64,000 nucleotides of DNA from Micromonospora nigra (GTDB lineage Bacteria > Actinomycetota > Actinomycetes > Mycobacteriales > Micromonosporaceae), in NCBI RefSeq assembly GCF_900091585.1, contig NZ_FMHT01000003.1, positions 4,393,501-4,457,500 on the forward strand. Direction: 5' to 3'. This document shows, in pieces, positions 13,507 to 57,625 of this stretch. The notes under the pieces were generated by a model. It did not search any database. It was not told the origin of the DNA and was given only the letters and a program-made list of their open reading frames with translations. Position 1 is the first letter of the stretch; every line of letters begins with the position of its first letter. The position numbers were made by a program, and so were the translations under genes.

Positions 13507-13508
13507 CG

Positions 13509-40393: not shown

Positions 40394-40454
40394 CGTCTCG
40401 TACCGACGGCAGGCATTGGGCAGTTCGGTGCAAGAGGTCAAAGGAAGGGGTCTG

Positions 40455-40946
40455 ATGGAGACAATTCAGCGACAGTCGGGCGGGGTCCGTCGAGTCTTTC
40501 ACCGGTCGTTGCTGGCGGTGGCGCTCGTTGCTGCCAGCTTCGGCGTGTCCCTTACTGCTGCCAGTCCCGCCCAGGCGGCCAGCACCACCATGTGTTCGAC
40601 CTCGTCGGTGCCCGCAGGGTGGCTGGTGACGGAGGTCCAGACGAATGCGGGCGCCATCTGTGGGCCGTACCTGTTCTTCCGAATCACCAACGATCTGCGG
40701 AACGGCATGTACATGTGTTCGGTCACGCAGCCGCCTGCGGGTTGGGTGGTCACGGAGGTGCAGAGGAACGCGGGCGCCATCTGCGGGCCGTACCTGTTCT
40801 TCCGAATCACCAGTGATCTGCGGAACGGCATGTACATGTGTTCGGTCACGCAGCCGCCTGCGGGTTGGGTGGTCACGGAGGTGCAGACGAATGCGGGCGC
40901 CATCTGTGGGCCGTACCTGTTCTACCGCATCAGTCGACTTGCCTGA
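40455..40946 (+). CDS. Secreted protein with three 41-residue repeats
   Basis: A 163-residue paralogue of the preceding gene. After METIQRQSGGVRR comes a signal peptide ending in SPAQAAS, then three repeats (MCSTSSVPAGW, MCSVTQPPAGW and MCSVTQPPAGW as starts) spaced exactly 123 bases apart at 40590, 40713 and 40836. The second and third units are nearly identical in DNA, so the expansion is recent. The ATG at 40455 follows AAGGAAGGGG. The family is unknown; the protein is very likely exported and disulphide-bonded. Confidence 0.75.
   Translation: METIQRQSGGVRRVFHRSLLAVALVAASFGVSLTAASPAQAASTTMCSTSSVPAGWLVTEVQTNAGAICGPYLFFRITNDLRNGMYMCSVTQPPAGWVVTEVQRNAGAICGPYLFFRITSDLRNGMYMCSVTQPPAGWVVTEVQTNAGAICGPYLFYRISRLA
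40590..40940 (+). repeat. 123-bp coding tandem repeat
   Basis: Three units of 123 bases (41 codons) lie here, with a related pair at 40160 and 40283 in the upstream paralogue. Near-identity between units 2 and 3 means copy number can change by recombination without loss of frame. Confidence 0.85.
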
Positions 40947-41447: not shown

Positions 41448-41636
41448 TCAGCGGCGGATCGTGCCGACGAATGTGGCCCACGCGGACGCCGGGAAGGCGA
41501 GTGCCGGGCCGTGTGGGTCCTTGCTGTCGCGTACGGCGACGATGCCGGGCAGGTTGTCCGCGACCTCGACACACTCGCCGCCGTTGCCGCCACTGCGGGT
41601 GCTCTTGCGCCAACGAGCGTCGGTCAGATCAACCAT
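41448..41636 (-). CDS. DUF397 protein
   Basis: A 62-residue protein with the full DUF397 pattern: DLTDARWRKSTRSGGNGGECVEVADN, VAVRDSKDPHGPALAF, then WATFVGTIR. In actinobacteria these small proteins are encoded next to Scr1-type helix-turn-helix regulators and are thought to act with them, in pairs resembling antagonist/regulator or toxin/antitoxin modules. The ATG at 41636 overlaps the 3' end of the upstream regulator, so the two are translationally coupled. Confidence 0.93.
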   Translation of the reverse strand: MVDLTDARWRKSTRSGGNGGECVEVADNLPGIVAVRDSKDPHGPALAFPASAWATFVGTIRR

Positions 41637-42513
41637 GGTGGACCTCCCCGATGATCTTGTTGATCAGATGCTTCGATTGTTCCTCATCAAGGGCGAGTGA
41701 GAGCAGCCCCGACCAGACTTTCTCGTAGGCGGCCACCTCGGCGGGCCTGTCGAGGTACAGCGAGCCCGTCCACGACTCGCTGTAGACGACGGGTGGCTCG
41801 GGGGTGCTGCGGTTGCCGGGTGGGAAGCCCAGAAGAACGAACTCGCCCCCGACCGCGCCGTGGTGAGGGCCTGCGGCGAGGGGCAGGACCCGGATCGACA
41901 CGTTCGGCAGGCGGGCCATCGCCAGGAGGTGGCCCAGTTGCCCGGCCATGGTTCCGGTGTCGCCGACTGGCCTGAGGAGCACCGACTCGCAGAGCACCAC
42001 CTGCACCTGCGGGGCCTGCGGCAGGCGGCGGGTCAGCAGGGACTGTCGTTGCAGGCGAAGCTCGACCGCGCGCTCCCGGTCGTCGTCGCTCATGTCGGGC
42101 TGATCGATGCGGTAGATGCCCCGGGCGTAGTCGCGGTTCTGAAGGATGCCCGGCACGAGGCTGTTCTTGTAGAAGCGGAGTCTCGACGCGGCGGATTCGA
42201 GGCCGACGTACAGCTCGAACCACTCCGGGATGGCGTCGCCGTAGGCGTGCCACCACCCCCTCGCCCTGGTCTCGCTCGCCAGGGCGGCCAACGCTCGCGT
42301 CAACTCCGGATTCGTGTCGTAGAGCTGGCACATTGCGCGGACGTCCACCGCGCGCACCGAGCCGAGCCCGCTTTCGATCCGCCACACCTTCTGCCGGCTG
42401 CACTCCAGCGCCTCGGCGGCGGCGTCGAGGGTCACCCCCGCCTCGGTGCGCAGGTCACGCAGGGCCCTGCCGAGCTGGCGTCGGGGCACCGTCGACCCCA
42501 TGTCATCGGTCAC
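41629..42513 (-). CDS. Scr1-type helix-turn-helix regulator (XRE plus DUF5753)
   Basis: A 294-residue protein. An XRE helix-turn-helix lies near residues 10-65 (RQLGRALRDLRTEAGVTLDAAAEALECSRQKVWRIESG). The DUF5753 domain follows, with the family's WFELYVGLESAASRLRFYKNSLVPGILQ and DRPAEVAAYEKVWSGLLSLALDEEQS. These regulators pair with a downstream DUF397 gene, as here, and influence development or secondary metabolism in actinomycetes. The GTG at 42513 has an AAGGAGA ribosome site six bases away; longer upstream starts have none. Confidence 0.92.
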   Translation of the reverse strand: MTDDMGSTVPRRQLGRALRDLRTEAGVTLDAAAEALECSRQKVWRIESGLGSVRAVDVRAMCQLYDTNPELTRALAALASETRARGWWHAYGDAIPEWFELYVGLESAASRLRFYKNSLVPGILQNRDYARGIYRIDQPDMSDDDRERAVELRLQRQSLLTRRLPQAPQVQVVLCESVLLRPVGDTGTMAGQLGHLLAMARLPNVSIRVLPLAAGPHHGAVGGEFVLLGFPPGNRSTPEPPVVYSESWTGSLYLDRPAEVAAYEKVWSGLLSLALDEEQSKHLINKIIGEVHHG

Positions 42514-42680
42514 GCGGCTCTCCTTCCCGTTGAGTTCTGCAACATCCCGACGGCTGTTCTGAAACAGGGGAATGTTGCCCACAAATAATCGAACAGTATG
42601 AGTCGCCATTCATTGCGATGGTGGCCCTGACCTTACAAGATAGGTCCGACAACGGCGATGACCGTGGAACTCCCATTGCC

Positions 42681-42692
42681 CGACAATTGTCG
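42681..42692. promoter_or_regulatory. Palindrome CGACAATTGTCG between divergent genes
   Basis: A perfect 12-bp palindrome 37 bases upstream of the GTG at 42729, with a half-site CGACAACG near 42647. It is the best candidate operator in the 215-base divergent region shared with the Scr1-type regulator, which may bind it. Confidence 0.4.
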
Positions 42693-42728
42693 AACGCACC
42701 TGTCATCGAGTAAGGGTGGTGCTGCTTC

Positions 42729-42902
42729 GTGCGCGCGTTCTTCCGATACTTCCGGGCCGGGTCGCCCCGGCCCGCGGCCTACCGGGCCGCCATTTACCGG
42801 CCGTCGAAGCCCTGGCAGGTGCGCGAGCGCCGGTTCACCCGGCGGGGCCGACGCGGCGTGGACGTCGGGGACGTCACCGAGGATCTGGCGGCCCGCCGGT
42901 GA
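42729..42902 (+). CDS. Small Arg-rich protein, first gene of a three-gene operon
   Basis: A 57-residue basic protein (MRAFFRYFRAGSPRPAAYRA at the N-terminus, RERRFTRRGRRG in the middle). It starts with GTG at 42729 after a GGGTGG site. Its stop overlaps the next start by four bases (GTGA), a strong sign that this short frame is real. The charge suggests nucleic-acid or ribosome contact, but nothing else supports a function. Confidence 0.6.
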   Translation: MRAFFRYFRAGSPRPAAYRAAIYRPSKPWQVRERRFTRRGRRGVDVGDVTEDLAARR

Positions 42903-43150
42903 GCCCACGATTCGTGGCGCACCTGCCGTTCACCGCCGCCGACCTGCCCGCCGCCCGGCAGTTCGCCGGCACCCTGGCCCGCTCCCTGAGCTTCCTCACC
43001 GAAGTCGACGGCGGCGAGACCACCGTGTCGGCCGAGGACGCCCAGGGCGTACGCCATCGGGTCTTCTGCGACCTGCCGCTCGATGCCGGCCGGCGGTGTG
43101 TGCGCCGCGTCGACCACGACGGGGCCTGCGCGCCCCGGCAGCGCCGATGA
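42899..43150 (+). CDS. Small unknown protein, second gene of the operon
   Basis: An 83-residue protein starting with GTG at 42899 inside the stop of the previous frame. It has a helix (LPAARQFAGTLARSLSFL), a beta-rich middle (GETTVSAEDAQGVRHRVFCDL) and two cysteines (FCDLP and RRCVRR). Its own stop overlaps the following ATG (ATGA). I do not recognise the family. Tight coupling on both sides means it is probably made in fixed ratio with the large zinc-cluster protein. Confidence 0.65.
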   Translation: MSPRFVAHLPFTAADLPAARQFAGTLARSLSFLTEVDGGETTVSAEDAQGVRHRVFCDLPLDAGRRCVRRVDHDGACAPRQRR

Positions 43151-45225
43151 CCGCCGCCCCCACCGTCGTCATCTGCCCCGACTGCGACGGGATGACGTTC
43201 ACGCTGGATCCGTGCGCGTGCACCGCCTACGGCGACCGATTCTTCGCCGACGCCGACGCCGACGCCGACGGCTCCGCTGCCGCCGGCTCGGACGTGCCCG
43301 CGCCGCGCCGGGAGGCGTACCGGGGCTGCGAGCAGTGCCGGGGCGTGGGCAGCGTCGCGTACCCCTGTCACCGCTGCGGTCGACGCGGCCGGCGGCGGGC
43401 GCAGCTCGTCGTCACCGTCGCCAACCTCGACACCGGCGCGGTCGCCTCCCAGCGGGTCGTGCCCGGCGGCCTCGACGCCCGCCGCGACCCGGCGGGCCGC
43501 TGGGTGGTCGACCTCGCCTCCCGGGTACGCGAACTCGCGACCAGCGTCGGCGCGGTCGTGCCCGCCACCGACGTGCCGACGCTGTGGCTGGACGGGCAGT
43601 GGCGGCCCGACCTGCCTGCCGCGCGACGGTACGAGCTGGAGGCCCACGCCATCCTGCGCGCCGACCACGCCCCCTGGCGGCTGCTGCTCGGCCGCACCAC
43701 CGCCGCACCCCCGGTCGACCCCGCCGCCCGGCTGGCCCGGCTCTGCGCGCTGGCCGACCTGCTGCTGCTCGACCTGGTCGTGGAGGCCCGCCGGCAGGGC
43801 GCGGGGTTCGGCTGGGCCATCCGGTACGAGGTGCCCGGCACCCCCGTGCCGTCCGGGTCGCCCGGCCGGTGCCACGGCCTGCCGGAGGCGCTGACCCGCA
43901 CCGACGAGGCCGCCGCGCTCACCGGCCTCGCCGAGCGTGGCCTCGCCGCCCCCGCCCGGCTGCTGCGCCCCGGATCGCCGCGCCCGCCCGTCGCCCCGGC
44001 CGTCGACGTCGACCAGCTCGAACGCCGGATCCTCGGCGACTGCGTCGACCCGACCGGCGGCGACGAACTGCCCGGCGCGCAGGCCCTCTGGCGGGACGGC
44101 CGCTGGTGGCACACCACCCTGCGCGCCGGGGAACCCGTCGACGACCTCGCGGAACGGCCCACCGGCCAGGTCGTCCGCCGCGTGCGGGTGCCGTTGACCC
44201 GCGGCCACCAGCCACCCGACCCGCCGTGGCTCGGCGAACCCGTCGGCTGGCGGCCCTGCCCCGACTGCCGCCCCCACAACCGGCTGCGCGTCTGCACCTG
44301 CCGGCTCGGCGGGCGTCCCGCCGAACCCGACTGCCCGCACTGCTGCGGCGCGGGCCTGCGCCCCTCGGCGCTGCGCTGCCTCACCTGCGGCGACACCCAC
44401 CGCCTCCACGAGGCCCTGCTGGTCACCGTCACCGACCTGCGGCACCGGGTCGTGCACCTCGTGTGGCGGGCCGGCACCCCCGAGGACGCTCCGCTGGTCG
44501 CCATCCAGCCGGGCGGCAGGCCTGTCGTCCGACTCCCCGACCGCTACCGGCTCGGTGCCTGGGCGGCCGTGCTCGGCGGGCGGCCCGAAGACCTCGCCGA
44601 CGCCGACGGCGGACACGAACTCGGCAAGGGACTGCGCGACGGGTACGTCACCCTGCCCCGGGCCGGAGCCGACCCCGTCGCCGAACACGTGCGCGACGCC
44701 GGTTGGGGCGTGGCAGCCGGCCGCCTGATCGTGACGACGGCACCCCCCGACGCGCCGCCGCTGCCCGAACTGCTGCGCCTCACCCTCGGCCTCGACCTGG
44801 CCCTCGTGGTCGGCATGCACGACCTGCGCCACCACGCCGCCGACCCGTTGCTGGCCGACGGCCTGAGCTGGTCGGTCGACGTGAGACCGCGCGACGCCCC
44901 CGTCCACCCCGACGACCTGCCCTGCCGGCCGAGCCTGGAGGCCGCGCTCGCCTGGTGCTGGGAACTGCTGCCCGACACCGTCGCCGGGGCCGCCCCCGCC
45001 GACCCGGCCGCCCCGATCCCGCAGCCCCGGTCGGGGCCACGCGACCTCGACCCCGATCCCGTGCCGCACCTGCTGCGGCTTGCCGCCAGGCACGCCGGGC
45101 AGGTGGTCACCGTGCGCTTCACCCGCACCGGCTGCACCGTGCACCGGCACGACGACGACGGCGTACGCCTGCTCGCCGAAGCCCTCGACCTCCCTGCCGC
45201 TCTGGCTGCCCTGCGGCAGACATGA
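43147..45225 (+). CDS. Large protein with two DnaJ-like zinc clusters, unknown
   Basis: A 692-residue protein built as a duplication. The N-terminal half has CPDCDG, CACTAYGDRF, CEQCRGVG and CHRCGR, followed by QLVVTVANLDTG. The second half (from about residue 370) has CPDC, CTC, CPHCCGAGL and CLTCGD, followed by LLVTVTDLRHR. Each half is thus a DnaJ-like zinc cluster plus a similar beta-rich unit. A C-terminal domain contains VDVRPRDAPVHPDDLPCRPSLEAALAWCWELLP. No J-domain, nuclease or ATPase motif is seen. The ATG at 43147 overlaps the previous stop. The position inside a BREX locus suggests a defence or regulatory role, which is only inference. Confidence 0.75.
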   Translation: MTAAPTVVICPDCDGMTFTLDPCACTAYGDRFFADADADADGSAAAGSDVPAPRREAYRGCEQCRGVGSVAYPCHRCGRRGRRRAQLVVTVANLDTGAVASQRVVPGGLDARRDPAGRWVVDLASRVRELATSVGAVVPATDVPTLWLDGQWRPDLPAARRYELEAHAILRADHAPWRLLLGRTTAAPPVDPAARLARLCALADLLLLDLVVEARRQGAGFGWAIRYEVPGTPVPSGSPGRCHGLPEALTRTDEAAALTGLAERGLAAPARLLRPGSPRPPVAPAVDVDQLERRILGDCVDPTGGDELPGAQALWRDGRWWHTTLRAGEPVDDLAERPTGQVVRRVRVPLTRGHQPPDPPWLGEPVGWRPCPDCRPHNRLRVCTCRLGGRPAEPDCPHCCGAGLRPSALRCLTCGDTHRLHEALLVTVTDLRHRVVHLVWRAGTPEDAPLVAIQPGGRPVVRLPDRYRLGAWAAVLGGRPEDLADADGGHELGKGLRDGYVTLPRAGADPVAEHVRDAGWGVAAGRLIVTTAPPDAPPLPELLRLTLGLDLALVVGMHDLRHHAADPLLADGLSWSVDVRPRDAPVHPDDLPCRPSLEAALAWCWELLPDTVAGAAPADPAAPIPQPRSGPRDLDPDPVPHLLRLAARHAGQVVTVRFTRTGCTVHRHDDDGVRLLAEALDLPAALAALRQT

Positions 45226-45264: not shown

Positions 45265-46563
45265 TCAGAGCGACGGCGACGAGCCGGGGGACTGCCCGCC
45301 GTGCCGGGCGAAGAGGTTTCGCAACTCCTCCCGCCCCCGCACGAGGGTCCGCAGCAGGCTCGCCGTGTCCGTCTGCGGCGGGAGGGGCAGATCCGTGGTC
45401 AGGTCCCGGACGCCGAAGCTCGCAGCCAGCCACGCGCGAAGGGCGCGAAGGTGCTGCGCCTTCCTGTCGGTGGTCGGCAGGGCCCAGACATCCGTCTCGT
45501 ACGGTGTGTCGTCGTGCCCGACGCCTGCCAGCAGGCCGGACTGCCGGATCAGGCAGGGGTAGCAGTGCCCACAGTGGTGCGGTCTGCTGGCACCGCCGAA
45601 CTTGCAGGGGGACTGGCCGCAGCTCACCGTCACCATCAGGGCCGCGAGCGGCAGGCCGAGATCTCTGGCCCGACGACAGACCTCACCCTTGGTGGCGGGT
45701 AACAGCGGATTCTCCACCCGGACATCGCCTTCGGCGGAGTTGATGAGGTCGTTGACCAGATCCAGGGTGCGCGGATGGACGGACCGCGTGGAGCAGGCGG
45801 CCACCCGAGCGGCGGTGAGCGGAGGATTCACCGCCAACTGCCCGTTCTCGGGTACGGCAACCTGTCGGGCCCGATGGGCGGCGGCAGCGAAGACCGCAGT
45901 GGCAAGGAACAACAGCCCGCGGGACCGTGAACTCCGATCGAGTCGTACGCCGTTGGCCCGTGACTGCAACAGCACCGCCCGGTGCTCGACAGGACGGGAC
46001 CTCAGGCGACGTAGGTGGTCGAGGATCTGCTCCTGGCGGCGTTTGAGCGTTGGGTCGTAGTAGGACACCAGCAGCAGCGGACCCCCGGCCTGCTGGACCC
46101 GTTCCGCCGCATAGGCAGTGGAGTCGAGACCTCCGGAGAAGAGCGACACCTCCTCGACCCGAGCGTCGTCCAGCAGCCGCCCCTGCACGCCCGGGTGCCT
46201 GGCCGCGCCGCTGTGGAAACGGATGCTCCATCGATCGGCCGTGAGTATCTCCAACAGGGCGGTGAGCGTCGGCGCGGCGTGATGCCACCGGTCCGGATCG
46301 ATCACCTGCACGGACAACTCGATGGTCCGGGTCCATCGGTCCGGTGCGAGTTCGCGCCCGGAGAGCTTGTCGGCCAGATACACGGCCTTCGCGATGCGGA
46401 GAAGGTCCTGGGCCCAATCCGGCGGCGGCGGCGCGGGCGACAGATTGCGTTCGATGGCACTGCCCCTGGCCCGGAAGAGTCGATCATCGAGCGGCTGGTG
46501 AGAGGATGAGAACCGCACCCTGCCGTCGGTCGTGTAGTGGTAGGCGTACCGGCCCGTCTTCAC
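45265..46563 (-). CDS. qatC: QueC-like enzyme resembling QatC
   Basis: A 432-residue protein with the PP-loop ATP pyrophosphatase signature SGGLDS (residues 143-148). Near the C-terminus is the zinc site typical of QueC: Cys315 and Cys320, then Cys331, Cys334 and Cys337 (HHCGHCYPCLIRQ). QueC makes preQ0 through an adenylated carboxy-deazaguanine. This protein is almost twice as long, has an extra N-terminal domain, and no other queuosine gene is nearby. That matches QatC of the Qat antiphage system better than queuosine synthesis. The GTG at 46563 forms a GTGA overlap with the upstream gene. The name is given by resemblance of fold and context, not by a search. Confidence 0.72.
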   Translation of the reverse strand: MKTGRYAYHYTTDGRVRFSSSHQPLDDRLFRARGSAIERNLSPAPPPPDWAQDLLRIAKAVYLADKLSGRELAPDRWTRTIELSVQVIDPDRWHHAAPTLTALLEILTADRWSIRFHSGAARHPGVQGRLLDDARVEEVSLFSGGLDSTAYAAERVQQAGGPLLLVSYYDPTLKRRQEQILDHLRRLRSRPVEHRAVLLQSRANGVRLDRSSRSRGLLFLATAVFAAAAHRARQVAVPENGQLAVNPPLTAARVAACSTRSVHPRTLDLVNDLINSAEGDVRVENPLLPATKGEVCRRARDLGLPLAALMVTVSCGQSPCKFGGASRPHHCGHCYPCLIRQSGLLAGVGHDDTPYETDVWALPTTDRKAQHLRALRAWLAASFGVRDLTTDLPLPPQTDTASLLRTLVRGREELRNLFARHGGQSPGSSPSL

Positions 46564-47312
46564 GGCTGTGCCTCCCATGTGCCGAGCGCTGTCTCCACCG
46601 TCCGGGTCAGCAACTCGTGAGCGGTCTCCACGAGCAGGCCCCCGCGTGGGGGCCTGCTGGCAGCCTCAGCGCACGGGTCGGGCAGCACATCGAGAACATG
46701 GGCGGCCACGGTGCTGGCGACCAGTCCGGTCGGGTCGAGTGGAACCGCGAGCGACATCGCCAGCGGAACGCCCTCCGCGATGGCGGTGTCCACGTAACCG
46801 GCGACGATGTCTCCGAAGAAGAACCGGTAGATCCTGCAGAACAGGTCACCGGTAATGCGTACGGAGCCCTCGCCCGTGCGCAGCGCGGTGGTCACCGGCG
46901 AGTCGTCGGCCAGCAGTTCCTCGGCGGCTCGCCGGGCTGCCCGGCGTGCGACGGCATCTCCGACCAGCCCGCCGTCTCCGCCTACACCGGCGACGAACCG
47001 GGCAACGAACTCATCCTGGCGCTGCGGGACGGTCTCACCCGGGACAGCCACCAGCCTCGACGTGCCCCGCAGCAGATCTCCCAGAACATCGACCAGGTCG
47101 TTGCCCGCCCGGAGCGCCGCAGGGCGGAGACCTGACATGTCAGGGTCCTCGTCAAGTGATTCGGCCAGCGCCCGGCGGTACTGCAGGGCAACCTGTTCCG
47201 CCCAGTCGTGACCTGCCCCGGCAGGGCTGTCAGCCGTCCACTGCCCCAACCGGCTGCGGGCGGGCTTCCAGGCCCCACCGCGAGGCCCGGGTAACGTCGT
47301 CGACGTGCCCAT
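46560..47312 (-). CDS. qatB: QatB-like partner of the QueC-like enzyme
   Basis: A 250-residue helical protein that begins MGTSTTLPGPRGGAW, closely resembling the Met-Gly-Thr-Ser start I recall for QatB proteins. The rest is Ala/Leu-rich and helical (GNDLVDVLGDLLRG, ITGDLFCRIYRFFFGDIVAGYVDTAIAEG, TAHELLTRTVETALGTWE). It is translationally coupled to the QueC-like gene. Removal of Met would expose an N-terminal Gly, a plausible acceptor for a deazaguanine carboxylate activated by the partner. The ATG at 47312 follows GAGGTGA. No recognisable QatA ATPase or QatD (TatD-like) lies next to it. The assignment rests on context and the N-terminus. Confidence 0.6.
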   Translation of the reverse strand: MGTSTTLPGPRGGAWKPARSRLGQWTADSPAGAGHDWAEQVALQYRRALAESLDEDPDMSGLRPAALRAGNDLVDVLGDLLRGTSRLVAVPGETVPQRQDEFVARFVAGVGGDGGLVGDAVARRAARRAAEELLADDSPVTTALRTGEGSVRITGDLFCRIYRFFFGDIVAGYVDTAIAEGVPLAMSLAVPLDPTGLVASTVAAHVLDVLPDPCAEAASRPPRGGLLVETAHELLTRTVETALGTWEAQP

Positions 47313-47347
47313 CGTCACCTCGCACGGCATAGGCGGCCAACGATCAA

Positions 47348-47376
47348 AGCTTATGGGTACGCACAGTGTCCGTCCA
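47348..47376 (-). promoter_or_regulatory. Possible promoter of the QatBC-like operon
   Basis: On the minus strand TGGACG (-35) and TAAGCT (-10) are 17 bases apart and would start RNA near 47341, about 29 bases before the ATG. It lies in the 362-base divergent gap (47313-47674) shared with pglY; no convincing promoter was found for pglY. Confidence 0.4.
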
Positions 47377-47674
47377 TGTTCTCAGGGTTGTCTGGCGACT
47401 GAGGGTGTGGCTGACCACTGGGGAGAGTGAGGCCGTTCACCGGTCTGTCGGGTTGTCGACTCTCACGCCGTAGGCATCCGATCCGATCGCCGATCTGAGC
47501 TTGCCGCTAGCCGGGCCTGACCTGGGATGCCTCGGACGTCCGGCCACAGTGGTCGGTGGGAGGGCCTGGCCGAGCCGGTCAATCAGTCCGCTTCGGGGCC
47601 AACCAAGCCGGTACCCGGACATCGGGGTCGATGGGTAGCGTGTCGGGCACCCTGGGGAGGCTGGAGGACCACCT

Positions 47675-50600
47675 GTGACGCTGCTGCGCGACCTGATCGA
47701 CATCCCGACGTCGGTCGGTGAGGGCGACTTCGTGGTGAAGGCGGCCGAAGGTGCCGACCTGAAACGCTACGTCGTCACCGACCAGCTCAAGGAGAACTTC
47801 ACCAGCGCGTTGCAGCGGATCGGCCACGCCGTCACCACCGGCCGGTCGCAGGCGATGTTCCTGCACGGCTCGTTCGGCTCCGGCAAGTCGCACTTCATGG
47901 CCGTGCTGCGGGAGATCCTGGCGCACAACCCGCAGGCCCGGCAGATCAGCGGATTGGAAGGACCCGTCGTCGCCGCCGACGCGTGGCTGCCGCAGCGGAC
48001 GTTCCTCACCCTCACCCTGCACATGCTCGACGCGCGTTCCGTGGAGCAGGCGATCCTGGAGGGCTACCTGCGCCAGATCACCGCCCGGCACCCGGACGCG
48101 CCCGTCCCCGCCGTGCACCGTTCCGACGCGCTGCTGGTCAACGCGGCCGACCTGCGCGCGACGCTGGGCGACGACGCGTTCTTCGCCAAGCTGCGCGGCG
48201 GCGGCGCGGGACCCGGGGCCGGTGGCGGCGGGCTGGCCGCGCTGCGTGCCCGCGCCGAGGGCTGGACCCCCCAGCGGTACGCCGACGCCGCCGCCCAACC
48301 GCCCGGCACGAAAGACCGCGACGCCCTGGTCAGCGCCCTCACCGAGACCTTCTTCAGCGGCGCGGTGCACAGCGCCGAATACCTCGACCTGGACACGGGC
48401 CTCGCCGTCATCACCCGGCACGCCAAGGCCCTCGGCTACGACGCCATCGTGCTCTTCCTCGACGAGCTGATCCTGTGGCTGTCCGGGCGGATCGCCGACC
48501 ACACCTTCGTCAACACCGAAGGTGCCAAGCTCAACAAGCTTGTCGAGTCGGCCGACGCCGCGCGTCCGCTGCCACTGGTCTCGTTCGTCGCCCGCCAGCG
48601 CAACCTGGAGGAGTTCCTCGGCCCGCAGGTCGGCGGCACCGAGCGGGAGGCGCTCGCGCACGTCATGCGCAGCGTGCAGGGCCGGTTCGGCGAGATCGTC
48701 CTCGCCGACACGAACCTGCCCGAGATCACCGAGAACCGGCTGCTCAAACCGAACGACGCCGCCGCCCGCAACGTCATCGACAACGCCTTCGCCGCCGTGC
48801 GGCACAACCGCGAGGTGTGGGACATCCTGCTGCTGGGCGCCCAGTACGGCGACGCCGGCATCGGCTCCGACGCGACCGCGTTCCGGCAGCTCTACCCCTT
48901 CTCGCCCGCCCTCGTGGCGACGCTGGTCGCGCTGTCCCAGGCGCTGCAACGGGAACGGACCGCGCTGAAGGTGATGACGGAGCTGCTGGTCGACCGGCGC
49001 GACAGCCTGCGGGTCAACGACCTGATCGGGGTCGCCGCCCTGTTCGACCCGCTGGTGCTGCACGGGGAACTGCCCGACCGGCCGAAGCTGCGGCAGCAGT
49101 TCGAGGCGGCCCGGTCGCTCTACCTGCGCAAGCTGCGTCCGATCCTGCTGACCCTCAACGGCGTCGACGAGGAGAAAGCCGCCTCCCACACCCAGTTCCA
49201 CCTCGACGACAAGCTGGTCAAGACGGTGCTGCTCGGCGCGCTGGTGCCCGAGGTGCCGGCCCTGCACAACCTGACGGCGGCGAAGCTGCACGCCCTGAAC
49301 TTCGGCTCGATCGCCGCGCCGATCCCCGGCTACGAGAACACCATGGTGCTCAACCGGCTGCGCAAGATCGAGCAGGACGCCGGTGAGCTGCACCTGACCG
49401 ACGACCACGATCCCGTCGTCTCGCTGAAACTGCACACCGTCGACTTCGACAAGCTGCTCGACCTGGTGCCGCTCGGCGAGACCTCCGCCGGCGTACGGCA
49501 GCAGTTGCTGCGCGAACTGATCAGCGCGGAGATGGGGCTCGCCGGCAGCGAGGGCAGCCACGGCGAGCTTCAGCAGCCCCGCGACTGGCGGGGCCGGCGA
49601 CACGTCGTGCAGGTCAAGTTCGGCAACGTCCGCGACCCCGACACCATGCCGGTCGCCGCGCTGATCGCTCCCGGCGAGTCGTGGCGGATCGTCGTCGACT
49701 ATCCGTTCGACCCGCAGGACTACCCGCGCAGCGCCGACCGGGCCCGCATCGAGGAGCTGCCCCGGGGCTCACACACCGTCTTCTGGCTGCCGCTCTATCT
49801 GACCGACGACATGATGGGCCGGGTCGCCCAGCTCGCGAAGATCAACTATCTGCTCGGGGTCGGCGGTGCCGGGGAGCGGTTGAACACCCTCGCCGCCGAC
49901 TGGCCCAAGGCCGACCGGCAGCAGGGGCGGGTCTATCTGCTGCAACGGCAGACCCAGCTCCGCGACGGCCTGATCACCGCCCTCAAGCAGGCGTACGGGG
50001 CGGCGAACCCGCAGCCCTCCGAGGTGCACGACGACACCGTCGGGGTGCTGCACACCCTGGCCGACGGGCTGCGCATCGGCGACCCGCGCGGCGGCACCCT
50101 GGCCGACGCCTTCCGCAACCTCACCGGGGAACTGCTGGAATGGTCGTACCCGGGCACCCCGGCCCTGCCCGTCGACGAGAAGCCGCTCACCCGGGCGGAC
50201 CTGGCGAAGGTGTTCGAGTACGCGGGCAAAGCCGCCGCCGACCCGACCCACGGCGTCTCCGTCGCCTCCCCGGCCGACCAGAAGATCCTCCGCCGCATCT
50301 GCAACCCGCTCCAGCTCGGCGAACTCGTCGACCACCGGTACGTGCTCGACATCAGCACCTGCTTCTGGAGCCGACACCTGCTCCAGGAGGCGGCCAGGCA
50401 GGACTACCGCGACCACTTCCCGGTGCACGTGCTGCGCAAGCTGCTCGACGTGCCCAAGGCCCGCGGCTTCGACCGCGACCTGCAGAACCTGATCATCTCG
50501 GTCTTCGCCCTCGAACAGCAGCTCAGCTGGTACGACAACGGCGGGAAGATCACCGTTGCCGCCGTCAACGGGGTGGAGGACCGCTTCGAGCTGCGTCACC

Positions 50601-51460
50601 CCCCGATGCCCGACGACGACACCTGGAAAGCCGCCGTCCGGTTCGGGCAGCCGTTCTTCGGCGAGGTGCTGCCACTGTTCCGCAACCCCGCGAACCTCGG
50701 CACCCTCGCCAGCACCATGCGGAAGGTGGCCAGGGCGTACGCCGACGTCGCCGGGCAGCTCGTCACGCACCTCGAAAGGCACGCCGACCTCCTGGGACTG
50801 GACACGGCGGCCACCACCGGCCGGCTCGCCACCGCCCGACGGGTCGCCCACCTGCTCACCCAGGTCGCCCACGAGCAGGACGACGTGGTGCTCGTCGCCG
50901 TGGTCGCCGGGGGCGACCAGCACCTCGGCGGGCTCGACGGGCACGCCGCCAGTGGCGTCTACAAGCAGGCGCAGAAGCTGATCACCGCACTCACCACCAC
51001 CCAGTGGCCGCTGGTCGCCGCGCTCGTCACCCTGGCCGACAACGACGACCGTGCCCGGCGTACGGTCGAGCAACTGCGCGGCGCGGCCCGCGACGAGCAG
51101 CACGGCTCGGACCTGGTCACGGCGCTCCAGCAGGCCGTCGGTGCCGCCGCCGCCCTGCTCGCGCAGAGCAAACCCACCGTCGACCCGGAACCGGCCGTCG
51201 ACACCGGCCCGACGGCCGGCGCGACGCCGTCGGACGGGCAGCAGGCGAATCCCGAGCCGCCGCAGGTCGCCACCTCGTTCGTCATCCCCGGTCCGCGCCC
51301 TGCCGCCGACCCGATGACCGGGGTGACCACGAGCGGGACGGTGGTGGTCACCGACGACGACGAGCTGAACCGGCTGACCGAGCAGCTCCGGGCCGAGATC
51401 ACCGCCGGCCGGCGGGTCGAGGTGACCTGGCGGGCGCAGCGGCAGGAGCTGCGCCGGTGA
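47675..51460 (+). CDS. pglY: BREX type 2 ATPase PglY
   Basis: A 1261-residue P-loop ATPase of the PglY/BrxC group. The Walker A motif is HGSFGSGKSH (about residues 66-75), preceded by the family's FVVKAAEGAD and YVVTDQLKENFTSAL. LFLDELILWLSG is the likely Walker B. A long C-terminal helical region ends in a disordered Pro/Thr segment and VEVTWRAQRQELRR. PglY is essential for phage growth limitation and probably remodels DNA or the other BREX proteins. The GTG at 47675 is preceded by CTGGAGGACC. The stop overlaps the pglZ start (GTGA). Confidence 0.94.
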   Translation: MTLLRDLIDIPTSVGEGDFVVKAAEGADLKRYVVTDQLKENFTSALQRIGHAVTTGRSQAMFLHGSFGSGKSHFMAVLREILAHNPQARQISGLEGPVVAADAWLPQRTFLTLTLHMLDARSVEQAILEGYLRQITARHPDAPVPAVHRSDALLVNAADLRATLGDDAFFAKLRGGGAGPGAGGGGLAALRARAEGWTPQRYADAAAQPPGTKDRDALVSALTETFFSGAVHSAEYLDLDTGLAVITRHAKALGYDAIVLFLDELILWLSGRIADHTFVNTEGAKLNKLVESADAARPLPLVSFVARQRNLEEFLGPQVGGTEREALAHVMRSVQGRFGEIVLADTNLPEITENRLLKPNDAAARNVIDNAFAAVRHNREVWDILLLGAQYGDAGIGSDATAFRQLYPFSPALVATLVALSQALQRERTALKVMTELLVDRRDSLRVNDLIGVAALFDPLVLHGELPDRPKLRQQFEAARSLYLRKLRPILLTLNGVDEEKAASHTQFHLDDKLVKTVLLGALVPEVPALHNLTAAKLHALNFGSIAAPIPGYENTMVLNRLRKIEQDAGELHLTDDHDPVVSLKLHTVDFDKLLDLVPLGETSAGVRQQLLRELISAEMGLAGSEGSHGELQQPRDWRGRRHVVQVKFGNVRDPDTMPVAALIAPGESWRIVVDYPFDPQDYPRSADRARIEELPRGSHTVFWLPLYLTDDMMGRVAQLAKINYLLGVGGAGERLNTLAADWPKADRQQGRVYLLQRQTQLRDGLITALKQAYGAANPQPSEVHDDTVGVLHTLADGLRIGDPRGGTLADAFRNLTGELLEWSYPGTPALPVDEKPLTRADLAKVFEYAGKAAADPTHGVSVASPADQKILRRICNPLQLGELVDHRYVLDISTCFWSRHLLQEAARQDYRDHFPVHVLRKLLDVPKARGFDRDLQNLIISVFALEQQLSWYDNGGKITVAAVNGVEDRFELRHPPMPDDDTWKAAVRFGQPFFGEVLPLFRNPANLGTLASTMRKVARAYADVAGQLVTHLERHADLLGLDTAATTGRLATARRVAHLLTQVAHEQDDVVLVAVVAGGDQHLGGLDGHAASGVYKQAQKLITALTTTQWPLVAALVTLADNDDRARRTVEQLRGAARDEQHGSDLVTALQQAVGAAAALLAQSKPTVDPEPAVDTGPTAGATPSDGQQANPEPPQVATSFVIPGPRPAADPMTGVTTSGTVVVTDDDELNRLTEQLRAEITAGRRVEVTWRAQRQELRR

Positions 51461-54204
51461 GCATCACCCGGGTGGCCGTGCGTCCGGCGGCCGTGCGTCG
51501 CAAGGTCGAGGCGTGGCTCGCCGAGCGGGACGACGCCAACGCGATCGTGCTGCTCGCCCGTCCGGAATGGACGGACGAACCTGTCCTCACCATCGACGAC
51601 ACGCAGGTACGGGTCGTGCCGTGTCCCACACCCATCGCGGCGCGGGCCGCACTGGCCGACCGGGCGGCACACGAGAAGCTCGTCCTGCTGACCGACCTCA
51701 CCGACACCGAACTGGGCGACGGGCTGCTCGCCCACGTCAGCCTCCAGACCGGGCGCAGCGTCGACCCCTGGGATCTGGTCGGGCAGGCGTTCGGCGGCCA
51801 GGTGCAGCCCGACTCGACCCTGGTGCGTACCGGTCGATGGGTGGCCGACGCGCTCACCGAACTGGCCCCCACCGCCGGCTGGCCGCCGCCCGCCGGCACC
51901 ATCCTCACCCGCGACCACGCACTGCGGCACCTCGCCGGCGCGGTCCTCGGCCTCGATCCCGACGAGCTGGACGGTGCCGGGCTGCTCCACTGGAGCACGG
52001 ACGCACCCACCCAGCTGCGATTCGGCGAACTGCCCGCCGACTGGGCCGAGGGCATCGCCGACTTCCTGGTCGAGGTGGCCGGGCCGGTCGCCGTCCCGGT
52101 GCTGGCCGCCGTGCGGGCCGGACACGGCACCGACGCGATCCCGCTCGGCCTGCTGGCCGGTGTGCTCTGGCCACGCAGCTCGGCACAGACGCCGGACGTG
52201 GAGATCGCGGTGGCCCGGACCCGGCTGGAGCCGCGCTTCGGCGGCACCCGACTCACCGACTGCCAGGCCAACCTGTTCCTCGAGGCCGCCGAGGCGTGGA
52301 TCTACCGGGCACTCGACGGCGACGACGCGGTGCGGCACGACGCGCACCGCATGCTGCGCCGGGCCGAGGAGATCGCCGCCGAGATCGACGTGACCGAGCG
52401 GCTGGTCGCCTCCACCCTGCTGCCGGTCGGGTTCACCCAACGGATGCGGGCCTTCGGCGCCGCGGTCCGGCTGGCCCTGCCCGGGTCCGCCGCCGGCACA
52501 CCCCCGCCCGACCTGATCGGGAATGCACAGGACCGGCTCGCCGAGGTCGAAGCCCACCGGTCCGCCGACCGCTCCCGGGTGGAGACCGCCCGGATGGCCG
52601 TGCGGCTCCTGCGTTGGCTGGCGATCGGCGACGGGCGGGGACCGGCCACCATGCTCGCCGCCGTGCACCGGCAGGTGCGCGACGACGGCTGGGTGGACCG
52701 GGCCCGACTGGACGTGTTCGCCGGAGACGTCGACCAGCAGGTCGCCCAGGCGTACCGCGCGCTGCACGCGGCCGTCGACACGCGGCGCGCCGAGCACGAC
52801 CGGGAGTTCGCCGAGCTGTTGCAGGACATGACGGGGGCCGAGCGGGAGCCCGGGACGCTGTTCCGGGTGGAGGACGTCCTGGACCGGGTGGTCCGGCCGA
52901 TCCTCGACAACGGCCGCCGGATCCTGCTGCTGCTCCTCGACGGCATGAGCGCGGCAGCGGGCATCGAGATCGCCGACTCACTGGGGCGCAGCGGCGCCTG
53001 GACCGAGCTGACCCCCGGCGGAGGGCCCCGAACCGGGGTGCTCGCCGCCCTGCCCACCATCACCGTCGTCAACCGGTGCAGCCTGTTCAGCGGACGCATC
53101 GCCGTCGGTGACCGCGCCGCCGAACTGAGAGCCTTCACCGGCCAGTTCCCGGGCAGCGTCCTGCTGCACAAAGCCGACCTGCGCACGCCTGCCGGCCTGG
53201 CGGTCGACCCCGAGGTCGCCGGCGCGATCGACGACCCGGCCGTGCCGATGGTGGCGGCCGTCATCAACACCATCGACGACGCACTCGACCGCAGCGACCC
53301 GGGCACCATCGAGTGGAGCACCGACACCGTCAACGGCCTGCGCGACCTGCTGGCGGTCGCCCAGGACCGGGTGGTGGTGCTGGTCTCCGACCACGGTCAC
53401 GTGGTCGACCGTGGCTCGGAGGCGGTGCTGCTGTCGTCAGACTCCGGCGAGAACCGCTGGCGACCGGCGACCACCGCCCCTCGCGACGGGGAACTGCTCT
53501 ACGCCGGCACCCGGGTGGCGCTCGGCAACGGTCGGGTGATCCTGCCGTGGCGGGAGGAACTGCGGTACGGCCCCCGCAAGGCCGGCTACCACGGTGGTGC
53601 CACACCCGCCGAGGTCGTCATCCCCCTCCTCGTCTTCGCCGCCCAGGACGAACACGCCGTGCCGGGCTGGGCCGGCGCTCCCGTCCCCAGCCCCGAATGG
53701 TGGCGGGAACCGATCCGGCAGACGACCTCGGGCGGCTCCACCACCGTCGCCGCCCGACCCGGGGCCAGACCCAGCGGCCGGCCGGGCCGCCGGCACCGGC
53801 CACCGGCACAGGACGAGGGCCTGTTCGACCTGCCGTCGCCCACGTCCGCCGCTGCGCCACCGCCGGCCACCACACCCGCCCCGGTAGAGCCCGCCTCGGC
53901 GCTCGTCGACGCCCTGCTGGCCAGCCCCGTGTACGCGGACCGCCGTGACGCCCGAGCACCGATCCCCGACGAGCGGGTGGCCGCCCTGCTCGCCACCCTG
54001 GTCGTCGGCAACGGCCGAGCCACCCTGGACACCCTCGCCACCCGGGCCGGCATCCCGGCCCACCGGATCCACGGCACCTTCACCGCCCTGCGCCGACTGC
54101 TCCAGGTCGAGGGGTACCCGGTGCTCAGCCTCGACCCCGACGGCCGGACGGCGAAGCTGGACATTCCGCTGCTGGTCGAGCAGTTCGGGCTGGAACCATC
54201 ATGA
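51457..54204 (+). CDS. pglZ: BREX alkaline-phosphatase-like protein PglZ
   Basis: A 915-residue protein with the PglZ domain in its second half. The metal-binding segments of the alkaline phosphatase superfamily are visible: LLLLDGMSAAAG (about 491), then LVSDHGHVVDRG (about 643), followed by LPWREELRYG. The N-terminal half is family-specific (ITRVAVRPAAVRRKVEAWL). The last 150 residues contain a Pro-rich linker and a winged-helix-like end (NGRATLDTLATRAGIPAHRIHGTF). PglZ is the signature gene of all BREX systems. GTG start overlaps pglY; its stop overlaps brxD by four bases (ATGA). Confidence 0.95.
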   Translation: MSITRVAVRPAAVRRKVEAWLAERDDANAIVLLARPEWTDEPVLTIDDTQVRVVPCPTPIAARAALADRAAHEKLVLLTDLTDTELGDGLLAHVSLQTGRSVDPWDLVGQAFGGQVQPDSTLVRTGRWVADALTELAPTAGWPPPAGTILTRDHALRHLAGAVLGLDPDELDGAGLLHWSTDAPTQLRFGELPADWAEGIADFLVEVAGPVAVPVLAAVRAGHGTDAIPLGLLAGVLWPRSSAQTPDVEIAVARTRLEPRFGGTRLTDCQANLFLEAAEAWIYRALDGDDAVRHDAHRMLRRAEEIAAEIDVTERLVASTLLPVGFTQRMRAFGAAVRLALPGSAAGTPPPDLIGNAQDRLAEVEAHRSADRSRVETARMAVRLLRWLAIGDGRGPATMLAAVHRQVRDDGWVDRARLDVFAGDVDQQVAQAYRALHAAVDTRRAEHDREFAELLQDMTGAEREPGTLFRVEDVLDRVVRPILDNGRRILLLLLDGMSAAAGIEIADSLGRSGAWTELTPGGGPRTGVLAALPTITVVNRCSLFSGRIAVGDRAAELRAFTGQFPGSVLLHKADLRTPAGLAVDPEVAGAIDDPAVPMVAAVINTIDDALDRSDPGTIEWSTDTVNGLRDLLAVAQDRVVVLVSDHGHVVDRGSEAVLLSSDSGENRWRPATTAPRDGELLYAGTRVALGNGRVILPWREELRYGPRKAGYHGGATPAEVVIPLLVFAAQDEHAVPGWAGAPVPSPEWWREPIRQTTSGGSTTVAARPGARPSGRPGRRHRPPAQDEGLFDLPSPTSAAAPPPATTPAPVEPASALVDALLASPVYADRRDARAPIPDERVAALLATLVVGNGRATLDTLATRAGIPAHRIHGTFTALRRLLQVEGYPVLSLDPDGRTAKLDIPLLVEQFGLEPS

Positions 54205-55502
54205 CGGTCGAGGTGAGCGCCCGCCGGAGACGGGACATCATCGACGCCCTGCGGCGGGGAGCCGTGCCCGCCAACGGCCTGGACGCCCTCGCCGTCGGCC
54301 TCGACCGCTTCACCACCGCCCTCGACGAGGACCTCGACCGGGTCTCCGGGGGCGGCAGCGTCTTCAAGGCCGTGCGCGGCGAGTACGGCGCCGGCAAGAC
54401 CTTCTTCACCCGCTGGCTGGGGGAGCGGGCCAAACGACGCGGGTTCGCCGTCGCCGAGGTGCAGATCTCCGAACTGGAAACCCCACTGCACCGGATGGAG
54501 ACCGTCTACCGGCGACTCGTCGAACAGTTGGCGACCGAACAGTTCGCCCCGAGCGCGATGCGGCCCGTGCTGGACGGCTGGATCTTCGCGCTGGAGGAGG
54601 ACGTCCTGGCCGGTGGCCGGGTCGCCGAGACCGACGCGGAGGGCCTCGACCGGGAGGTCGGCGAACTGCTCGAACGCCGCCTGGCAGACATCTCCCGGCG
54701 TACCCCCGGCTTCGCGGCGGCCCTGCGTGGCTACCGCACCGCCGTCGCCGACGGCGACCAGGCCACCGCGGGCGGGCTCGCCGCGTGGCTCGGCGGGCAA
54801 CCCCACGTCGCCGCCTCCGCCCGGCGGGCGGCCGGGGTCAAGGGCGACCTCGACCACTTCGGTGCGCTGAGCTTCCTGCAGGGCCTGCTCGCGGTGCTGC
54901 GGGACAGCGGGCACCCCGGCCTGCTCGTGGTGCTCGACGAGGTGGAGACCCTGCAACGGGTCCGCTCGGACGCCCGCGACAAGGCGCTCAACGCGCTGCG
55001 GCAACTCGTCGACGACATCTACGCCGGCCGGTTCCCCGGCCTCTTCCTCCTGATCACCGGAACCCCGGCATTCTTCGACGGCCAGCAGGGTGTGCAGCGA
55101 CTCGCCCCGCTGGCGCAGCGGCTCGCCACCGACTTCGGGGCGGAGCCCCGCTGGGACAACCCCCGCGCCACCCAACTGCGACTGCCCGGATTCAGCGAGG
55201 ACGCGCTGGTGCAGCTCGGCGTACGGGTGCGGGAGATCTACGACAGCGGCCGGGTCTGCGACGTCGTCGACGACGACTACCTCGGCGAACTGGCTCGCGC
55301 CGTGGCGGGTCGCCTCGGCGGCCAGGTCGGCGTGGCACCCCGGGTCTACCTCAAGAAGCTCGTCGCCGACGTGTTCGACCGCGTCGACCAGTTCGACGAC
55401 TGGGACCCACGTCGCCACTACGAGCTGACGCTGCGTCCCGACGAACTGACCGAGGTGGAACGCAACGCCGCCTCGGCCGACGACATCACCCTGCCGATGT
55501 GA
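54201..55502 (+). CDS. brxD: BREX ATP-binding protein BrxD
   Basis: A 433-residue P-loop protein of the DUF2791 type. Walker A is GEYGAGKTFF (about residue 62) and Walker B is VVLDEVETL (about 243), with LITGTPAFFDG beyond it. Its first 20 residues (RRRRDIIDALRRGAVPANGLDALAVG) match the BrxD start pattern. BrxD is an accessory ATPase of type 2 BREX, thought to work with the helicase BrxHI. It sits between pglZ and brxHI with four-base overlaps on both sides. Confidence 0.92.
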   Translation: MTVEVSARRRRDIIDALRRGAVPANGLDALAVGLDRFTTALDEDLDRVSGGGSVFKAVRGEYGAGKTFFTRWLGERAKRRGFAVAEVQISELETPLHRMETVYRRLVEQLATEQFAPSAMRPVLDGWIFALEEDVLAGGRVAETDAEGLDREVGELLERRLADISRRTPGFAAALRGYRTAVADGDQATAGGLAAWLGGQPHVAASARRAAGVKGDLDHFGALSFLQGLLAVLRDSGHPGLLVVLDEVETLQRVRSDARDKALNALRQLVDDIYAGRFPGLFLLITGTPAFFDGQQGVQRLAPLAQRLATDFGAEPRWDNPRATQLRLPGFSEDALVQLGVRVREIYDSGRVCDVVDDDYLGELARAVAGRLGGQVGVAPRVYLKKLVADVFDRVDQFDDWDPRRHYELTLRPDELTEVERNAASADDITLPM

Positions 55503-57625
55503 GCGAGGAACGTCTGCTCGACCCGGTCGTCCTGCACCACGTCGTCAACAGTCTCGGCTGGTCCGACCTGCGGCCCCTGCAACGCGCGTCGATCGGGCCC
55601 CTGACCCGGGGCGACGACGCGCTGCTGCTCGCCCCGACGGCCGGCGGGAAGACCGAGGCGGCCGTCTTCCCCCTGCTGTCCCGCATGGCCGGGCAGGGTT
55701 GGACCGGCACCTCGCTGCTCTACCTCTGCCCGTTGAAGGCGCTGCTCAACAACCTGCTGCCCCGACTCGAGCGGTACGCCGGCTGGCTGGGACGCGGTGT
55801 GGCGCTGTGGCACGGCGACGTCGCCACGTCCGCCCGCCGGGCCGTGCTCTGGCAGCGCCCGGACATCCTGCTCACCACGCCCGAGTCGCTGGAGTCGATG
55901 CTGGTCAGCGTCAACGTCGACCACCGGCTGTTCTTCGCCGGCCTGCGGGCGGTGGTGGTGGACGAGGTGCACGCGTTCGCCGGGGACGACCGGGGATGGC
56001 ACCTGCTCGCCGTACTCGAACGGTTGACGAGGGTGACCGGCCGGCCACTGCAACGGGTGGGCCTGTCCGCGACGGTCGGCAACCCCGACGAGCTGCTGAC
56101 CTGGCTCCAGGGTTCCGGGGCAGGTGCCCGGCCGGGCAGCGTGGTCGCCCCCGAACTGGCGACGACGCCACCGGCTGCGGAACCCGCCGCGCCGCCACCC
56201 GGGCAGATCGAACTCGACCACGTCGGGTCACTCACCAACGCCGCGACGGTCATCTCCGCCCTGCACCCCGGCCAGAAGCGGTTGGTCTTCTGCGAGTCCC
56301 GGCAGACCGTCGAGGAACTCGGGCAGCTGCTGCGCGAGCGGGGCACCACCACCTTCCTGTCCCACGCCTCCCTCTCCGCCGACGAACGACGCCGGTCCGA
56401 GCAGGCGTTCGCCGAAGCCCGGGACTGCGTCATCGTCTCCACCAGCACCCTCGAACTCGGCATCGACGTGGGTGACCTCGACCGGGTCATCCAGATCGAC
56501 TCCCCGGCGACGGTGGCGTCGTTCCTGCAACGGTTGGGGCGCACCGGCCGCCGGCCGGGCAGCATCCGCAACTGTCTCTTCCTCTGCCGCAGCGCGGCGG
56601 AGCTGACCAGAGCGGCGGCGCTGCTGCTGCTGTGGGGACGCGGGTGGGTGGAGCCGGTCGTCGCGCCGCCCGAACCCCGGCACATCGTCGCCCAGCAGAT
56701 GATGGCGCTCTGCCTCCAGGAACACCGCGTCGGCGACCGGCTCTGGCCGACGGCGTGGAACGGGTTGGGACCCTTCGGACCCGGCGCCGAGCCGATCGTC
56801 CGTCACCTCGTCGACCAGGGATATCTCGATGGCGACGGTGGGCTGCTGTTCATCGGCCCGGAGGCGGAACGGCGCTTCGGTCGTCGGCATTTCACGGAGA
56901 TGACAGCGGTCTTCACCGGCCCGCCCGAGTTCACCGTGCTGCACGGCCGGACCGAACTGGGCCGGGTCGACCCGAGCCTGCTCACCGAGGAGGTACCCGG
57001 GGAACGGCGGCTTCTGCTCGGCGGACGCGGCTGGCGGGTGACGTACGTCGACTGGCGTCGTCGCCGGTGCTTCGTCGAGCCGGCGGACGGGGGTGGGCGG
57101 GCCCGCTGGACCTCGTCGGGCTGGGTCGGCTCGGGGCATGCGTTGACCCGCGCGATGCGCGACGTCCTCCTCGGCGCGGATCCACCGGTCCGGCTGACCG
57201 CTCGGGCGAAGACCCGGCTGGCAGCTGAACGGGACGAGCGGTCGGCGCTGGTACACCCGGGCGGCAGCCTGATCGTTCGCACCGACCGCGGAGACCTGCT
57301 GTGGTGGACCTGGGCCGGTCTGCGGGCGAACGCGACGTTGACGGCGACCCTCGGCGAGGTCGTCGACCCCGTGCAGCGCTTCGATGACCACGCCATCCGG
57401 CTCCGCGAGAACCTGACGCCGCGCGAGTGGCGGTCCCTGGTCGCCGACGCCGCGCACCGACTGTGCCTACCGGAGGTGAATGACCGGGCCCTCGCCGGGT
57501 TGAAGTTCAGCGCCGCCCTGCCGGAACGCCTGGCGCGGGCCACCCTCGCCGCCCGCCTCGCGGACCTCCCCGCAGCGGCGGCCGTCCTGGACGAACCCGT
57601 CCGGTTTGTCACCGTCTCCCGCTGA
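55499..57625 (+). CDS. brxHI: BREX Lhr-like DEAD/DEAH helicase BrxHI
   Basis: A 708-residue superfamily 2 helicase. Motif I is APTAGGKTEA (about 43-52), motif II is DEVH (about 154-157), motif III is LSATVGN, and motif VI is QRLGRTGRRPGS (about 343). Lhr-type C-terminal regions follow. The Q-motif region LRPLQRASIGPL is at the start. BrxHI is the helicase that accompanies BrxD in type 2 systems. The GTG at 55499 overlaps the brxD stop (GTGA). It is the last gene of the BREX block and is followed by two hairpins. Confidence 0.94.
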   Translation: MSEERLLDPVVLHHVVNSLGWSDLRPLQRASIGPLTRGDDALLLAPTAGGKTEAAVFPLLSRMAGQGWTGTSLLYLCPLKALLNNLLPRLERYAGWLGRGVALWHGDVATSARRAVLWQRPDILLTTPESLESMLVSVNVDHRLFFAGLRAVVVDEVHAFAGDDRGWHLLAVLERLTRVTGRPLQRVGLSATVGNPDELLTWLQGSGAGARPGSVVAPELATTPPAAEPAAPPPGQIELDHVGSLTNAATVISALHPGQKRLVFCESRQTVEELGQLLRERGTTTFLSHASLSADERRRSEQAFAEARDCVIVSTSTLELGIDVGDLDRVIQIDSPATVASFLQRLGRTGRRPGSIRNCLFLCRSAAELTRAAALLLLWGRGWVEPVVAPPEPRHIVAQQMMALCLQEHRVGDRLWPTAWNGLGPFGPGAEPIVRHLVDQGYLDGDGGLLFIGPEAERRFGRRHFTEMTAVFTGPPEFTVLHGRTELGRVDPSLLTEEVPGERRLLLGGRGWRVTYVDWRRRRCFVEPADGGGRARWTSSGWVGSGHALTRAMRDVLLGADPPVRLTARAKTRLAAERDERSALVHPGGSLIVRTDRGDLLWWTWAGLRANATLTATLGEVVDPVQRFDDHAIRLRENLTPREWRSLVADAAHRLCLPEVNDRALAGLKFSAALPERLARATLAARLADLPAAAAVLDEPVRFVTVSR

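Follow-up and report, generated by a model that had tools for sequence, protein, structure and literature searches.

The closest described relative of the locus analysed here is the antiphage system qatABCD. The available parts of a recent report state that QatB and QatC alone protect against phage lambda, that the MGTS glycine motif of QatB and the active site of QatC are essential, and that the proposed chemistry takes place at the N-terminal glycine, with the reaction catalysed by QatC left as an open question (Gao et al. 2026, PMC13279940). QueC proteins are listed both for qatABCD and for the type IV cyclic-oligonucleotide-based antiphage signalling system (CBASS) (PMC10952713, in the part available). 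In the accessible text of a QueC-family survey, the neighbourhoods of cluster 2 contain qatA in 34.3% and qatD in 33.6% of cases (Libby et al. 2026, PMC13329287); because these genes are present in only about a third of the neighbourhoods, copies lacking them are implied. Here we describe a two-gene QatB-QatC pair in a 64,000-nucleotide stretch of the Micromonospora nigra genome (contig NZ_FMHT01000003.1, positions 4,393,501 to 4,457,500), which we call the window. Within a complete type 2 bacteriophage exclusion (BREX-2) locus, the pair sits between PglX and PglY; it belongs to an actinobacterial clade of its own, without QatA or QatD.

The pair consists of two open reading frames (ORFs) on the minus strand within 45265-47312. 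The upstream ORF (46560..47312) encodes a QatB-like partner of 250 residues starting MGTSTTLPGP, and the downstream ORF (45265..46563) a QatC-like QueC-family protein of 432 residues, whose GTG start lies inside the GTGA overlap that joins the genes; an earlier ATG at 46578 would give 437 residues. The order of the genes, qatB before qatC, is that of qatABCD. PglY begins divergently at 47675, and by the ORF coordinates the interval of 362 bp (47313..47674) is the presumed site of both promoters. This arrangement is as a previous examination of the window (the sequence-only reading) had described it.

The QueC-like protein matches QatC in PADLOC (E 6e-71) and QatC structures in the PDB (E 1.6e-43 and 1.4e-40), and has the complete QatC architecture of a QueC core with N- and C-terminal extensions. 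Against the NCBIfam QatC equivalog NF041925 it scores 248.2 bits, under the curated cut-off of 280, so that on its sequence it would be classed as a QatC relative below a called NF041925 equivalog. Its match to PF06508 exceeds the cut-off, and it scores just 23.9 bits against the canonical QueC equivalog TIGR00364 (cut-off 150.3). The SGGLDS site and the four zinc-type cysteines (C315, C331, C334 and C337 in the 432-residue numbering) are intact, as previously noted, and are unvaried in an alignment of 30 close relatives. The YPDC substrate motif of canonical QueC is replaced by Thr residues in QatC, according to the accessible parts of two reports (PMC13279940, PMC13329287), and the window protein has STRSVHP at the positions aligned to those residues.

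The partner has no match in Pfam, PADLOC or NCBIfam, and sequence and profile searches of the PDB returned no QatB match. Its identity as QatB is based on fold comparison together with profile-profile comparison. The sequence-only reading had named a lack of similarity to QatB as grounds for abandoning its proposal, and the similarity was found by structure. A sequence match of the partner to PDB 2a02 (E 0.0026) was set aside, as it disappeared when a profile was used. Searched with a degenerate pattern for the MGTSTTLPG start, the window gives one match, and 100 shuffles give none. The MGTS glycine start is found in the window partner, in 24 of the 27 distinct clade loci examined by pattern and in 8 of 11 proteins found by homology; removal of the methionine would expose Gly2. 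In the predicted structure the first helix begins at residue 13 and confidence is low to about residue 35; the disordered tail expected of QatB is 30-90 residues. The identity of the genes as a QatB-QatC pair is thus well supported, and a family of about 250 residues annotated as hypothetical thereby gains a likely identity as QatB.

We placed this pair among its relatives using surveys that detected QatC in 18 of 201 related genomes (E 1e-10) and, within the genus of G223, in 14 of 295 genomes (E 1e-20); wider surveys were thin, with 6 of 396 genomes in the phylum (E 1e-20) and 4 of 394 in the class (E 1e-60). The genus of G223 is taken as Streptomyces on account of named members of the clade, and the other G-numbered genomes are likewise assigned to genera through named relatives. 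In a QatC tree of 49 rows, drawn from the surveys, named loci and plasmid loci, 28 rows group into a single clade with support 100/100 and a stem of 1.35, leaving the other 21 outside. The clade label (2g) had been assigned beforehand from identity and neighbours, and the tree then placed the clade on one side of a branch. With L039, which is absent from the tree for want of a QatC gene call at a contig end, the clade comprises 29 distinct loci, counting L024 with L041 and L027 with L034 once each because the contigs within each of these two pairs are equal in length. None of the 29 has QatA and none has QatD; of the 16 four-gene loci that fall elsewhere on the tree, 15 have QatA and all 16 have QatD. 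One locus without QatA, QatD or any BREX gene (L088) falls outside the clade and is in neither count. Plasmid loci chosen for their Qat annotation (L047-L049, L051 and L052) were excluded from the counts, and L084, which has no QatA, was excluded from the tree. Some sequences are imperfect: L040 has no QatB and its QatC is missing the N-terminus, QatC of L041 is frame-shifted in its assembly and L111 contains a stop, neither of which was mended. In the window itself, searches with six reference proteins each for QatA and QatD gave nothing better than E 0.06, and a QatA elsewhere in the genome was rejected because no KAP NTPase match was found there. The earlier proposal of a minimal two-gene form lacking both genes therefore holds, and extends to a whole clade. 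Carriage of QatC by phages is not supported: phage records gave two distant Listeria matches, and a viral-contig scan, of a kind sensitive only to close relatives, was negative.

We next consider the linkage with BREX-2, which is frequent in the clade, although not constant. PglY adjoins QatBC in 8 of the 29 loci (the window, L030-L032 and L071-L074) and PglW in 5 (L021, L035, L037, L038 and L041). A further 3 have no more than BREX fragments, and in 13 no BREX gene appears in the stretches examined, some of which extend less than 10 kb per side. In all 13 intact linked cases QatBC is divergent from the BREX gene. Across the surveys of 201 and 295 genomes, an intact BREX-2 gene lies within 10 kb of 12 of 20 clade loci compared with none of the 12 four-gene loci (Fisher p 6e-4, uncorrected for kinship). 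Counting only loci with a PglY assigned to the same BREX locus gives 11 of 20 (p 1.6e-3, likewise uncorrected); the assignment crosses contigs in G083, where PglY and QatBC are on different contigs, and in G095 PglW adjoins QatBC and the genome has no PglY match. PglY itself is present in 38 of the 201 and 63 of the 295 genomes. Its scores split into two groups, one canonical, above 1400 bits, with 56 loci, and one lower, below 1100 bits, with 49 loci (fragments included); the latter includes the window and falls under the curated NCBIfam cut-off. QatBC accompanies 11 of the 49 lower-group loci and none of the 56 canonical ones (Fisher p 1.2e-4, uncorrected for kinship). As only 11 of the 105 PglY loci have it, QatBC is not a general BREX-2 component, nor does it qualify as part of the type 2 BREX core.

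The linked rows form three groups on the tree: one of Streptomyces beside PglY and two of Micromonospora, of which one adjoins PglY and the other PglW. Ten Micromonospora loci (L021 and L033-L041) share a flanking gene with 75-97% identity to the L036 copy; five of them have PglW, two have BREX fragments and three have neither. Because the flanking gene is common to all ten, the PglW group represents one inherited chromosomal site. The grouping by kinship means that the linkage goes back to about three inherited placements and not to 12 independent ones, and it is therefore suggestive but not proven. A correlated divergence of QatC and PglY (Spearman 0.78) was not used, as the pairs are non-independent and come mainly from two genera; the window and L032, for example, are 62% identical in QatC but 83% in PglY.

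The sequence-only reading had suggested that the pair borrows BREX parts. As a requirement this is not supported. Clade QatC is carried by five genomes in which PglY gave no match at E 1e-30 (G619, G730, G056, G069 and G082), although no QatB was seen in G069, where the contig ends, or in G082. It also stands beside BREX relics: a BrxD-BrxHI fragment in L025, only a PglY fragment in L034 and only a 31-residue piece of PglW in L036. From these occurrences, the pair probably works alone. The ratio of non-synonymous to synonymous substitution rates (dN/dS) is 0.16 to 0.43 over 12 pairs covering both genes, including pairs without intact BREX; one QatC pair spans just 80 codons owing to the L041 frame-shift. 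The low dN/dS and the BREX-free occurrence together favour a module working by itself.

The same reading had proposed that an adenylated carboxy-deazaguanine (CDG) is attacked by the N-terminal amine of the partner. Attack by the N-terminal glycine is plausible and, in the accessible part of the source, has already been published for qatABCD (PMC13279940); the choice of CDG is doubtful for this clade. According to the same part of that source, T278 and T280 of QatC stand where QueC and Cap9 have the Tyr and Asp that contact CDG. At the first of these positions the clade has Thr in 24 of 26 rows and Ser in 2 (L023 and L028), and at the second Ser in all 26, a residue also found there in six four-gene rows. 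The CDG-contacting residues of QueC and Cap9 are thus replaced in the window QatC, as they are in QatC.

We also looked for QueE in the hosts, using the TIGR03365 model, which matches 9 of 14 control genomes, and the QueE-like protein of the window's own genome (G000). Both queries found QueE in 6 of 22 clade hosts (G000, G108, G100, G034, G619 and G853) and in 1 of 14 four-gene hosts (G799); in the other 16 of the 22 clade hosts tested it was undetected by both. G006 and G058 gave weak TIGR03365 matches (28-30 bits), with no confirmation by the second query. A QueD-type PTPS was found in 28 of 36 hosts tested, being absent from 3 of 22 clade hosts (G681, G730 and G737) and 5 of 14 four-gene hosts; G759 and G383 fell outside the QueD and QueE searches. 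Because 16 of 22 hosts have no detectable QueE, host-made CDG is doubtful as a substrate for most of the clade, and the replaced contact residues make CDG doubtful as the attached group on separate grounds. However, a QueE variant may have been missed, or a precursor may be taken up.

The claim that no other queuosine gene is present holds for the window, where genome-wide searches gave no further QueC, QueD-type or QueE-type match (QueF and Tgt were not sought), but not for the genome. Contig C2 carries a run (L122, G000:C2:93000-112900, locus 6338-12668) comprising FolE (above its cut-off), a QueD-like protein (87.4 bits against a cut-off of 89.25), a QueE-like protein under all QueE cut-offs, a phosphoribosyltransferase-like protein, a SPASM-type radical SAM protein, a DegT-type aminotransferase and a QueC-like protein with SAGLDS. 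This run is likely to be a 7-deazaguanine natural-product cluster, and the window's own genome may accordingly make CDG. A complete queuosine operon lacking its own QueC had been named as evidence that would undo the proposal; the deazaguanine cluster on C2 has a QueC-like gene of its own.

The reading that we favour, and regard as probable though by no means assured, is that the pair is a self-sufficient two-gene Qat module carried inside a type 2 BREX locus, in which QatC modifies Gly2 of QatB. QatC would bind QatB and, through its SGGLDS and zinc sites, would use ATP to activate a small carboxylic acid, which would pass to the amino group of glycine 2 after removal of the methionine; either QatB so modified or the QatBC complex would then stop phage growth. 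QatA and QatD would be dispensable in the clade, and the BREX genes would often accompany QatBC in the genome without being required by it. Formation of the complex, the need for the glycine and activity in defence are expected by analogy with published Qat work in Pseudomonas and E. coli. A stricter form of the same view, which we consider a realistic possibility without leaning to it, holds that QatBC is carried as cargo of a defence island and has no functional tie of any kind to BREX, the adjacency going back to a few insertions that were then inherited. The single inherited site of the ten Micromonospora loci fits such a history, as does the presence of other variable genes in the pglX-pglY interval of relatives; it is harder to square with linkage in two genera and at two positions, with the divergent orientation in every intact case, and with the complete lack of linkage of four-gene Qat in the same surveys.

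The opposite possibility, in line with the borrowing of BREX parts suggested by the sequence-only reading, is that QatBC functions as a pair of subunits within this BREX-2 subtype, the modified QatB acting on or through PglY, PglW or PglZ in place of QatA and QatD. The divergent placement beside pglY or pglW, the three separate tree groups and the restriction to lower-scoring PglY all point this way, but 38 of the 49 lower-scoring PglY loci have no QatBC, 13 clade loci have no BREX gene in view, PglY gave no match in five clade hosts, and dN/dS stays low where BREX has decayed. In other bacteria, moreover, QatBC alone is enough, as far as the available text of PMC13279940 goes. We consider this possibility unlikely. 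Still more doubtful is a second defence line coupled to BREX-2, in which QatC would attach a molecule other than host CDG to Gly2 and the modified QatB would act with PglY or PglW; since most tested hosts lack detectable QueE and the CDG contacts are gone, the substrate would here be a different acid or one delivered by the phage. Finally, the QueC-like protein could be a biosynthetic QueC and its partner unrelated to defence, as the PF06508 match and the FolE, QueD-like and QueE-like genes on C2 might suggest. The complete QatC architecture with both extensions, the QatB fold of the partner, the weak QueC equivalog match and the separate QueC-like gene on C2 make this very improbable, and the preferred reading remains that of a self-sufficient module.

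The BREX-2 assignment of the surroundings made by the sequence-only reading is borne out, with six proteins matching PADLOC profiles nearly end to end. On the plus strand these are the kinase-nuclease PglW (29155..33273, 1566 bits), the methyltransferase PglX (33285..36740, start approximate, 1659 bits), the ATPase PglY of the lower-scoring subfamily (47675..51460; 1428 bits to PADLOC BrxC-PglY and 892 bits to NF047891, cut-off 1700), PglZ (51460..54204, start approximate, 968 bits), BrxD (54201..55502; 666 bits to NF033438, exceeding the cut-off of 350) and the helicase BrxHI (55499..57625, 1074 bits). Between PglX and the pair lies an XRE-type regulator on the minus strand (41629..42609; Pfam HTH_31 and DUF5753), a type frequent in the pglX-pglY interval of relatives. 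Convergent with qatC is a Cys-rich protein of about 720-855 residues (42658..45225, plus strand, start uncertain within 42658-43200), which has no PADLOC match. Its homologues (44-78% identity) occur in 9 of 26 BREX-2 stretches searched, together with QatBC in L030-L032 and L095 and without it in L098 and L101-L104. The PglX-PglY interval also contains direct repeats inside small ORFs at 40111-40932, with three 269-base copies that are 79-90% alike and a 63-base repeat in six copies, several spaced 123 bases apart. A Schlafen group 3 helicase-domain protein (27107-29011) lies immediately upstream of PglW, and relatives of this Schlafen-type protein also adjoin the BREX-free QatBC in L026. In L033, the BREX-free QatBC is adjoined by a 1365-residue protein (9470-13567) that weakly resembles protease and HEAT/ARM defence models.

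The clade offers a simpler natural system in which to examine the QatC reaction, as it has no QatA or QatD and its QatB N-terminus is predicted to be short. Its hosts, mostly without detectable QueE, constrain the QatC substrate, and because the pair recurs next to pglY or pglW, cooperation of Qat with BREX can be tested directly. We found no description in print of a QatC clade that lacks QatA and QatD and is linked to BREX-2. Published main texts gave no paper containing both QatC and BREX, supplements, figures, preprints and subscription papers being outside that search. The word BREX does not occur in the main text of PMC13329287, and queuosine, QueC and Qat do not occur in the main text of a BREX survey (PMC12839542; figures and supplements outside the search). 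The available part of a paper that mentions both 7-cyano-7-deazaguanine synthase and BREX handles Qat and BREX as separate Acinetobacter systems.

In comparison with known systems, the window pair resembles qatABCD in its QatC fold with both extensions, its SGGxDS and zinc sites, the ten-helix fold and MGTS start of QatB, and the order of the two genes. It differs in lacking the QatA KAP ATPase and the QatD TatD nuclease, in the shorter predicted N-terminus of QatB, in the Ser at T280 (shared with six four-gene rows), and in belonging to a separate clade that often lies beside BREX-2. Its QatC falls with cluster 2, the QatC cluster of PF06508, as delimited in the available text of PMC13329287. 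Unlike Cap9 with CdnD in type IV CBASS, its partner has the QatB fold and is not a CD-NTase, and the aligned positions lack the Tyr and Asp with which Cap9 contacts CDG. Relative to type 2 BREX (Pgl), whose PglW, PglX, PglY, PglZ, BrxD and BrxHI are all present in the host locus, QatBC is an addition. Thus, the QatB-QatC core is known in kind, and what is new is its own clade and its repeated placement beside BREX-2.
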